Below, one piece after another: positions 21,871 to 24,860 of a stretch of DNA of 64,000 nt. Where the stretch lies: contig JAETSI010000010.1 of assembly GCA_021769725.1 (NCBI GenBank), positions 24,974 through 88,973 on the forward strand, read 5' to 3'. The position numbers and the translations under genes were made by a program. Under the pieces are notes generated by a model, which saw only the letters and a program-made list of their open reading frames with translations, was not told the DNA's origin and ran no database searches. Within the stretch, counting starts at the first letter, position 1, and the number at the start of each line of letters is the position of its first letter. The DNA comes from Oscillospiraceae bacterium. GTDB lineage: Bacteria; Bacillota; Clostridia; Oscillospirales; Ruminococcaceae.

Positions 21871-23202
21871 TCATTGCTCATTTGTGAAATGCCACGAGTA
21901 ATCAAGCATTTCCGGAGAGTAATTTTCCAGTTTTTCCAGAATGGGAAGTACGTCTTTCCGAGCAGATTCAAGATCATGTTCCAGATAATTTCCGCATTCG
22001 ACCTCTGTACAGCCTGGGATCTCTCCCGTATAATCAGATATAAAGCGATAAGCATCTCTCACCAGACATATAGCATCCTTATGGGTCATATCGCGTGTGA
22101 GCAGATAAAATCCGGTGCGGCATCCCATAGGGCCTACATATATAATGTTTTTGCCGAATGAAGAATTTCTCGCATATGTCGCAAAAAGATGTTCGATAGT
22201 ATGAAGTGACGGATTGGAGATATACACACCGCCGTTAGGCTTTACCATCCGGACGTCATATGTGATTATATCGCCGTCGATACGGGATATGTACATTCCT
22301 ATGCCGAATTTTGTGTGATCGACCTGAAAGCTTGCTATTTTTTCCATGCTATTTTTCTCCTTAAAAAGATTTTTTATATCATCCGGAAAGGATGAACGGA
22401 CAATGAGTAGTTTGTTTGTTTCCGGATCGGTAAATTCAACTGCACCGCAGTGAAGTGCCTGACGGTTTATATCCTCCCGTGAGCCGCCGTATAGGTCATC
22501 TCCTGCAAGGGGATGACCTATATGAGCAAAATGAACACGTATCTGGTGAGTTCTTCCTGTTTCAAGAGATATCTGCAAAAGAGAATATTTTTCCCCGGAA
22601 CAGAGCTGACTGTAATGGGTGACTGCCCTCTGACCGTCTGCACGAATACAGCGTGTGATTATTGATTTCTGCTGCCTCGCAATAGGTGCGTCTATAGTGC
22701 CATGAGGAGGCGTAATTCCATGAACGACTGCAAAGTAGGTCTTGGTGCAGTTGTTTTGGAGAAGCCGGGCGGAATAGGCGTCTTTGGCAACGACGCACAA
22801 ACCGGAAGTATCTTTATCCAGACGGTTCACCGCTCGGAAAGTAAGTCCGGGATAAAGGGCGGCAAAATAATTTCCGAGAGTGTCGCCCTGATGCCTTACA
22901 GAGGGATGAACGGGCATTCCGCCGGGTTTGTCAAAAATCACTACAGCATCATTTTCAAAGGCTATCGGAACACTGAGGGAAGCGGCTGCGTCAAGGGATC
23001 TGTCATCGCCGGGACGCAGAATTATAACGTCTCCGTTTTCAACGAGGTCAATACTGCGGATAGTTCTGCCGTTCCGTGTAATACCGTTTTCCAGTCGTTT
23101 TAATTTTGTAAGAAGCCGTCTTGACACGCCTTTTTTTTCCATGAGGAATTTTTGCAGCGTGATCGGCTTTTCGCAGCTTACTGTCAGTTTTATTTCTTTC
23201 AT
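21871..23202 (-). CDS. RluA-family pseudouridine synthase fused in frame to S-ribosylhomocysteine lyase (LuxS)
   Basis: N-terminus: S4-like plus RluA catalytic VNRLDKDTSGLCVVAK; C-terminus from M at 22347: LuxS HTIEH, PMGCRTGFYL, ECGNYLEHDLE; no stop between the two. Confidence 0.88.
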   Translation of the reverse strand: MKEIKLTVSCEKPITLQKFLMEKKGVSRRLLTKLKRLENGITRNGRTIRSIDLVENGDVIILRPGDDRSLDAAASLSVPIAFENDAVVIFDKPGGMPVHPSVRHQGDTLGNYFAALYPGLTFRAVNRLDKDTSGLCVVAKDAYSARLLQNNCTKTYFAVVHGITPPHGTIDAPIARQQKSIITRCIRADGQRAVTHYSQLCSGEKYSLLQISLETGRTHQIRVHFAHIGHPLAGDDLYGGSREDINRQALHCGAVEFTDPETNKLLIVRSSFPDDIKNLFKEKNSMEKIASFQVDHTKFGIGMYISRIDGDIITYDVRMVKPNGGVYISNPSLHTIEHLFATYARNSSFGKNIIYVGPMGCRTGFYLLTRDMTHKDAICLVRDAYRFISDYTGEIPGCTEVECGNYLEHDLESARKDVLPILEKLENYSPEMLDYSWHFTNEQ

Positions 23203-23959
23203 ATTCGTCCTCTTTGATATAGATTGATATGCATAGTGCGGCTGCTGATGTAAGCCGTGTACAAGCAAATGGCAGTCCTATTATCGACACGATTGGCAGC
23301 AGATATACTGCTGCAAGCCCGACAAAAGCTGATTTTCTTCCTTTCATGAATCTTATTGAGAGCAATATTATCCTGAAAGGGCTATATTCCGGAAAATGAA
23401 CCATAAGGAAAGGCGCTGCGGCAAGACTTATTTTTAATGAAAGCCACATAATAACGGAAACAACCGTCAGCATGAATGCGTGGCAGGTAAGAAAAAGTTC
23501 TCTGGCAGTTCGGGCAGTTGAAAGCATAGAACTCGCTGTTATTCCGAAGAATACCGCCGGAGCAAGAGCAATGAGCGCCGCTGATTTTGACAGAATAGAA
23601 AGTCCGAGACTTTTCCGGAAATATTTTCGGCTCATGAGTATTCGTGAAAGCGGAGTTACAGACTTGCGGCTGCCGCATAATTCCATAAGGCGGAATGCCA
23701 TTGCAAAGGTCAGGGGAGCGGTAAATGTAATTCTCAGGACGGCAGTTATAAGAGCGATTGCAAGCTGAATTCTGCTTCCGCTGCTGAAAAGAGCCGCCGG
23801 CTGCATCTGACCGAAATATAGCAGGAGACTGTATACCGCAGCTTCTGCAAAGCGGAAGAATAGTTCTGCCGCCAGTGGAAGCAGACAGACCGTCATAGTG
23901 ACTGCACGCTTCCCTTTCAGCATTTTCCCTGAAAACGAGATAAGCTCACGGATCCTCAT
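23048..23959 (-). CDS. Uncharacterised multi-pass membrane protein
   Basis: 303 aa ORF with several TM segments; 3' end overlaps rluA by ~155 nt. Confidence 0.6.
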   Translation of the reverse strand: MRIRELISFSGKMLKGKRAVTMTVCLLPLAAELFFRFAEAAVYSLLLYFGQMQPAALFSSGSRIQLAIALITAVLRITFTAPLTFAMAFRLMELCGSRKSVTPLSRILMSRKYFRKSLGLSILSKSAALIALAPAVFFGITASSMLSTARTARELFLTCHAFMLTVVSVIMWLSLKISLAAAPFLMVHFPEYSPFRIILLSIRFMKGRKSAFVGLAAVYLLPIVSIIGLPFACTRLTSAAALCISIYIKEDEYERNKTDSKLRKADHAAKIPHGKKRRVKTASYKIKTTGKRYYTERQNYPQY

Positions 23960-24034: not shown

Positions 24035-24682
24035 TCAGAAGAAGTCTTCGTTAATGGGATCGGGAATCTTATCGTACGGACAGTAGCCGAGAATCTCAAA
24101 AGCCTGGGAATTAAGCCACATCTGGGCAGTGACTATAATATCGAAGCCCTCTCCGAAATCGGTGCTGAGTGTTTTCGGATCGTATTTCGGCAGTCCGAAA
24201 CAGCTTAGCATATTGGAAATAACGCCGCCGTGAGTTATCATGGCGCAGTGAGTAAGACCGTCGTTCATCATATCCATAATTATTTCATGAAGAGCCTTAA
24301 ATGTACGTGCAGTCATTTCTTCCAGGCTTTCGCCGCCGGGGGGACGTGTATCCTTTCCGCCTTTCAGCCATTTTTTGTAGTCGTCAAGATTCAGAAGTTC
24401 GTCAACACTTTTATTTTCAAAGCTGCCAAGATCAAGTTCACGGAGATCGTCAACAGTGCACATTTCAGTGCATGGAAAAAGTATTTCCGCCGTTTCGGTG
24501 CATCGCCTGAGCGGAGAAGAATACACTCTGTGAACAGAGGGGTAGTCGAATTCGTCCATTTTAGATACAAGTTCGGCTGCGCCCTTTCCGGAGAGCGGAA
24601 GATCGGTAGAGCCGATATATATGCCTTTTTCGTTGGCTTCTGTCAGACCGTGACGGAGTACGCTTATACGGTAGCCTTTCAT
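24035..24682 (-). CDS. Histidine phosphatase family protein
   Basis: SVLRHGLTEAN RHG motif, RVYSSPLRRCTETAE, THGGVISN. Confidence 0.9.
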   Translation of the reverse strand: MKGYRISVLRHGLTEANEKGIYIGSTDLPLSGKGAAELVSKMDEFDYPSVHRVYSSPLRRCTETAEILFPCTEMCTVDDLRELDLGSFENKSVDELLNLDDYKKWLKGGKDTRPPGGESLEEMTARTFKALHEIIMDMMNDGLTHCAMITHGGVISNMLSCFGLPKYDPKTLSTDFGEGFDIIVTAQMWLNSQAFEILGYCPYDKIPDPINEDFF

Positions 24683-24860
24683 TGATTATCAGTCCTCTCA
24701 TAAAAATAACCGCCATTGCCTGCATAATGTCGTTAGTGTGAAAGATTCTGCTCCCGACAGGCACAGGACTGACGGTTATTTTATTTAACCTTTATTATAA
24801 CAGAAAACGGCGTAAATGTCAATAGAAGTGAAAAATTTTACACGGAAAATCAATATAAAG

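Follow-up and report, generated by a model that had tools for sequence, protein, structure and literature searches.

The window analysed here is a stretch of 64,000 nucleotides from the genome of an Oscillospiraceae bacterium, a gut Ruminococcus. Its minus strand carries a probable operon headed by a histidine-phosphatase gene (24035-24682), which continues with an ORF for a DUF975-like membrane protein of 303 aa (23048-23959; the match to PF06161 is weak and below the cut-off) and with a single frame in which rluA is joined to luxS (21871-23202). In a consensus scan, the region ahead of the phosphatase gene gave a promoter-like TTGACA-17-TATAAT sequence matching at 12 of 12 positions (24794-24822, minus strand), a candidate for the operon promoter. 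The same gene order was seen in another genus (L092).

The DUF975-like ORF shares 155 nt with the start of rluA, read in a different frame (23048-23202, minus strand). In most Ruminococcus relatives these two genes overlap by about 98-155 nt, far beyond the usual bacterial overlap lengths; rluA codons 1-52 showed reduced synonymous change (0.12-0.22, compared with 0.37), as expected from dual coding.

The fused ORF begins with an ATG at 23202 and ends with a TGA at 21873-21871. Translation of this frame yielded 443 residues and a single terminal stop, with no stop ahead of that of luxS, and the motifs VNRLDKDTSG, HTIEH, PMGC and ECG..HDLE were all present. The initial annotation had described one uninterrupted minus-strand frame encoding an RluA-type synthase followed by LuxS; translation, motifs and Pfam searches bear this out, both PF00849 (PseudoU_synth_2) and PF02664 (LuxS) being matched above the curated cut-offs.

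The PseudoU_synth_2 domain covers residues 87-227 (22522-22944, minus strand; 3.7e-29, 102.3 bits against a cut-off of 26.8) and includes the catalytic RLDKDTSG, whose Asp129 is invariant across the fused set described below. The match to the RluA family model TIGR00005 reached 200.9 bits, against a cut-off of 192.7, and RluD was among the best solved relatives of this half. By profile and motif, the RluA half is a predicted RluA-family pseudouridine synthase, which would act on rRNA or tRNA. The genome encodes five PseudoU_synth_2 proteins, of which the fused RluA is one.

The LuxS part (21871-22347, minus strand) would, if translated from an internal ATG at 22347, give a free product of 158 aa. 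The PF02664 match spans residues 288-424 (4e-45, 153.8 bits against a cut-off of 27); the closest NCBIfam LuxS equivalog, NF002604, scored 157.1 against a cut-off of 158, 0.9 bits short. The metal and catalytic residues (HTIEH at 334-338, Cys361 of PMGC and Cys403 of ECG) are invariant across the fused set. This is the sole LuxS of the genome, and a second LuxS was likewise absent from all 13 fused genomes that were checked. The genome also encodes two PNP_UDP_1 proteins, the family of the S-adenosylhomocysteine nucleosidase that feeds LuxS. In six other Ruminococcus genomes (G006, G007, G032, G071, G072 and G095) an additional LuxS, about 57-62% identical to that of the window, was found away from rluA.

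LuxS enzymes are homodimers whose active site lies between the subunits. An AlphaFold monomer model of the fusion (mean pLDDT 84.3, pTM 0.52) showed two mostly confident domains, connected by a linker that, together with the LuxS N-terminus (283-294), was disordered with pLDDT below 50. No fixed interface between the RluA and LuxS domains was seen in this model, so structure prediction gives no support for a joint function.

At the junction the DNA reads ...CTT TTT AAG GAG AAA AAT AGC ATG. The AAGGAG-N9-ATG arrangement reported earlier for the domain junction is indeed present: the putative internal Shine-Dalgarno (SD) of luxS, AAGGAG, lies at 22362-22357 on the minus strand, 9 bases 5' of the ATG (22347-22345), with a duplex energy of -8.2 kcal/mol. 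The accessibility of the region from SD to ATG is no more than ordinary (rank 6 of 15 windows within the gene), which counts against an internal start.

The distribution of this arrangement was surveyed in 100 genomes of the genus, 299 genomes drawn from the family, a scan of 85,462 species genomes, and extra regions. This gave a set of 96 non-redundant rluA-luxS pairs, taken from Ruminococcus and from genera close to it; the named relatives of the window are Ruminococcus genomes and MAGs. In all 96 the two genes adjoin and run in the same direction. They are tight (30 nt or less from the aligned RluA end to the luxS ATG) in 85 pairs, of which 30 are in frame and 55 out of frame; all three frame relations occur, and the rluA stop lies from -29 to +33 nt.

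Fusion without a stop was found in 14 of the 96 pairs; in the other 82 the genes are separate, and fusion was rejected as a genus-wide trait. A stop or frame change between the genes in relatives had been named in the initial annotation as an argument against the fusion: most relatives are indeed split in this way, unlike the window, but not consistently so, since the 14 fused pairs include the whole clade of the window. That clade consists of five species, all fused. The remaining fused pairs are scattered (L015, L016, L017, L023, L024, L025, L026 and L044, and L087 in another genus), and L024, L025 and L026 are interleaved with the separate pairs L177 and L173, their junctions differing by small insertions or deletions. 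On the protein tree at least nine changes between the fused and separate states were counted; judged from these sequences, the fused state is of independent and repeated origin.

Three long open frames were rejected as fusions: the genes are set apart by a stop and 132-237 nt in G001 (a frame of 525 aa) and G020 (a frame of 501 aa; L139, L142), and in the 480-aa frame of L092 the rluA stop precedes luxS. In one MAG (L149, genome G067) rluA is frameshifted and the junction is nearly that of the fused pair L017; an assembly error or a decaying gene may account for this.

SD strength was calculated as the energy of the duplex that the 20 bases preceding the ATG form with the 16S tail. The SD is conserved in separate as well as fused relatives. 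Each of the 14 fused pairs retains both the SD and the luxS ATG, with energies of -8.2 to -10.9 kcal/mol (median -8.9), compared with -9.5 kcal/mol in separate pairs (P=0.12). Control energies for internal Met codons were -3.6 kcal/mol in rluA (P=1e-9 against the fused pairs) and -3.3 kcal/mol in luxS, and an energy of -8 was reached by 14% and 3% of these codons, respectively.

The 12 codons before the luxS ATG (22348-22383, minus strand) appeared in synonymous comparisons as a region under constraint at the nucleotide level. Within the five-species clade, where 18-57% of fourfold sites differ between species, 2 of 88 synonymous comparisons (0.023) differed at the junction, the corresponding counts for the bodies of rluA and luxS being 672 of 1797 (0.374) and 472 of 1165; the counts are pairwise among related rows and hence non-independent. 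Junction windows of 8 codons, with no or almost no synonymous change, ranked among the lowest of 434 windows, and AAGGAG itself showed zero synonymous change. The residue preceding the luxS Met varies freely in the clade (S, I or T). The synonymous freeze, combined with a free last linker residue, indicates that a DNA or RNA signal is conserved, more than the linker sequence; the internal luxS start thus looks to be under selection at the DNA level. The earlier proposal of a dual product, fusion and free LuxS, stands as far as the sequence reaches, with SD and ATG in every fused pair and the strongest synonymous conservation at the junction.

Codons 253-260 of the fused frame (about 22423-22446, minus strand) showed 0 of 51 synonymous changes in the same five species, which may be due to chance. 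Their distance from the luxS ATG is 32 codons, and a weak hairpin lies nearby (22458-22442).

If the fusion itself were selected, in-frame pairs would be expected to be stop-free more often than out-of-frame pairs, in which an open frame leaves the protein unaffected. Among the 30 in-frame pairs the luxS frame was open for 8 codons before the ATG in 14, and among the 55 out-of-frame pairs in 32 (P=0.37); for 10 codons the counts were 14 and 25 (P=1.0). For 4 codons it was open slightly less often in the in-frame pairs, with P=0.03 over all rows and 0.12 over representatives. With 30 and 55 pairs from related rows the comparison has low to modest power. Rates this similar in and out of frame suggest that fusion is neither clearly favoured nor clearly avoided.

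An excess of frame-0 junctions stop-free deeper than ATGA (P=0.013 over all rows and 0.0016 over representatives) was set aside, because a frame-0 opening past the ATG is necessarily deep, while the other frames receive a stop from the luxS start itself (TAATG, ATGA, or the TAG in AAAATAG). Absence of stops up to the ATG was taken as the fair comparison, a choice that postdates both results. Persistence of the fused state throughout the five species was not used as proof of selection either, since roughly one fusion-breaking event is expected at such divergence. This estimate is a rough one, obtained from the fourfold divergence and a hand count of about two single changes that spare the SD (AAG to TAG and AAA to TAA); mild selection for the fusion would also fit the persistence.

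Taken together, the sequence comparisons make it probable that the rluA stop was lost repeatedly in a compact operon, that free LuxS is initiated internally, and that the fusion is a tolerated second product. The promoter-like sequence could drive the phosphatase gene, the gene for the DUF975-like protein, rluA and luxS. Where rluA has no stop and luxS happens to share its frame, ribosomes that read on would make the 443-aa RluA-LuxS, so that all ribosomes completing rluA would yield the fusion, and other ribosomes would start at the internal SD and ATG and make an ordinary 158-aa LuxS. Since no termination occurs at the junction of the window, free LuxS would have to come from ribosomes newly recruited to the internal SD, and it is probably still produced alongside the fusion. 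Both proteins would be produced and both domains would be active; an N-terminal extension need not abolish LuxS, and tagged LuxS proteins are active. The main metabolic work, conversion of S-ribosylhomocysteine to homocysteine and DPD/AI-2, would be done by free LuxS. Cultures of R. flavefaciens have been reported to show AI-2 activity (PMC9540692).

A missing stop could also be due to an error of assembly or sequencing, a source of artefact that the initial annotation had allowed for. The genome is a draft of 213 contigs and rluA reads as frameshifted in one relative (L149), but the same stop-free junction recurs at 91% (L004/L033), about 79% (L005/L034, L006) and about 79% identity (L035) in relatives that come from separate assemblies and separate animals. 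These relatives contradict an error, other lineages carry unrelated stop-free junctions, and we regard this explanation as extremely improbable. It is very unlikely, in turn, that the fusion is the sole product and the internal SD and ATG an unused leftover of the separate state. The frame is open, so the fusion is inevitable if rluA is translated to its end, and internal initiation within a heavily translated frame can be weak; against this, the SD of every fused pair has kept the strength seen in separate genes, and the synonymous positions it covers have stayed fixed in the clade of the window, where a relic should decay like other synonymous sites.

The fusion might instead be a selected bifunctional protein, LuxS being tethered to a ribosome- or tRNA-modifying enzyme, for example for co-localisation or a fixed ratio. 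Such a protein would agree with the retention of the fused state across five species whose two sub-clades have rluA genes about 75% identical, with the intact catalytic motifs in both domains, with the presence of the fused LuxS alone in each fused genome examined, and with a TadA-LuxS single frame known in another family. We nevertheless consider it unlikely: stop-free junctions are not commoner than in the out-of-frame controls, near relatives switch state (fused L024, L025 and L026 against separate L177 and L173), the last linker residue is unconstrained, and the genes are separate in most Ruminococcus, including the cultured R. flavefaciens strains L039, L060, L064 and L082. Given the frequency of stop-free junctions, the alternation among close relatives and the prevalence of separate genes, the tie between RNA modification and S-adenosylhomocysteine detoxification and AI-2 suggested in the initial annotation is likewise not supported. 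Restricted to the clade of the window, a functional fusion that would bring a LuxS domain with every RluA to the ribosome or nascent rRNA, with a pool of free LuxS besides and both products selected, is quite unlikely. Most likely, the fusion product is tolerated rather than selected.

No description of an RluA-LuxS fusion, and nothing relevant on LuxS fused to a pseudouridine synthase or a nucleosidase, was found in the freely accessible literature searched. By the comparisons made here, RluA-LuxS is a new combination of ordinary parts, a real and recurrent in-frame fusion with a conserved internal start. The set, in which one gene pair is fused 14 times and separate 82 times, forms a natural series on how frequently operon genes fuse by a missing stop, and it also shows that the inner ribosome-binding site is still under selection after fusion. 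The locus is a warning for annotation, in that an automatic call of a single bifunctional enzyme of 443 aa would overlook the free LuxS, and fusion of the domains alone is no evidence that RNA modification and AI-2 are functionally linked.

When compared with known families, the window protein shares with the RluA family (TIGR00005, PF00849, with an S4-like N-terminal stretch) the domain, the catalytic motif and scores above the cut-offs, but its rluA lacks a stop codon of its own. It likewise has the full domain and the metal and catalytic motifs of S-ribosylhomocysteine lyase, LuxS (PF02664), in one copy per fused genome; unlike ordinary LuxS, it is also encoded as the C-terminal portion of a larger ORF. 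Translationally coupled operon pairs have close or overlapping start and stop codons (PMC12548453). Tight pairs of this kind, with stops from -29 to +33 nt, are the ancestral and commonest rluA-luxS state in the genus, and in separate relatives the rluA stop, at -4 to about +40 nt relative to the luxS ATG, fits translational coupling by the spacing ranges of that source (PMC12548453). The junction of the window, in contrast, has no stop, and luxS can therefore receive no ribosomes by termination-reinitiation.

In other Clostridia, too, LuxS shares a single frame with a neighbouring operon gene, as it does in the window. Fusions of LuxS with a PNP_UDP_1 nucleosidase were found in L182 (394-1596) and L183 (698-1828, minus strand), the latter directly behind an S-adenosylmethionine synthetase-like gene. 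In another clostridial family a TadA-type deaminase and LuxS form a single open frame (L184, 1025-2032, minus strand), with a AAAAAGGTG stretch 5 bases before a possible internal ATG; in L185 the genes for the TadA-type deaminase and LuxS overlap but are read in different frames, and they are followed by a nucleosidase gene. LuxS-nucleosidase unites two consecutive steps of S-adenosylhomocysteine recycling and so has an obvious logic, whereas RluA-LuxS has no such logic. A known parallel for the internal start is spaO, in which an in-frame start produces a short C-terminal isoform beside the full-length protein (PMC13059759). It resembles the predicted dual-product gene of the window in having one frame with two starts and a short form that corresponds to the C-terminal domain. 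The two forms of spaO work in one complex, whereas the RluA and LuxS domains have unrelated known functions and their arrangement is probably a recent and recurrent accident of operon packing.
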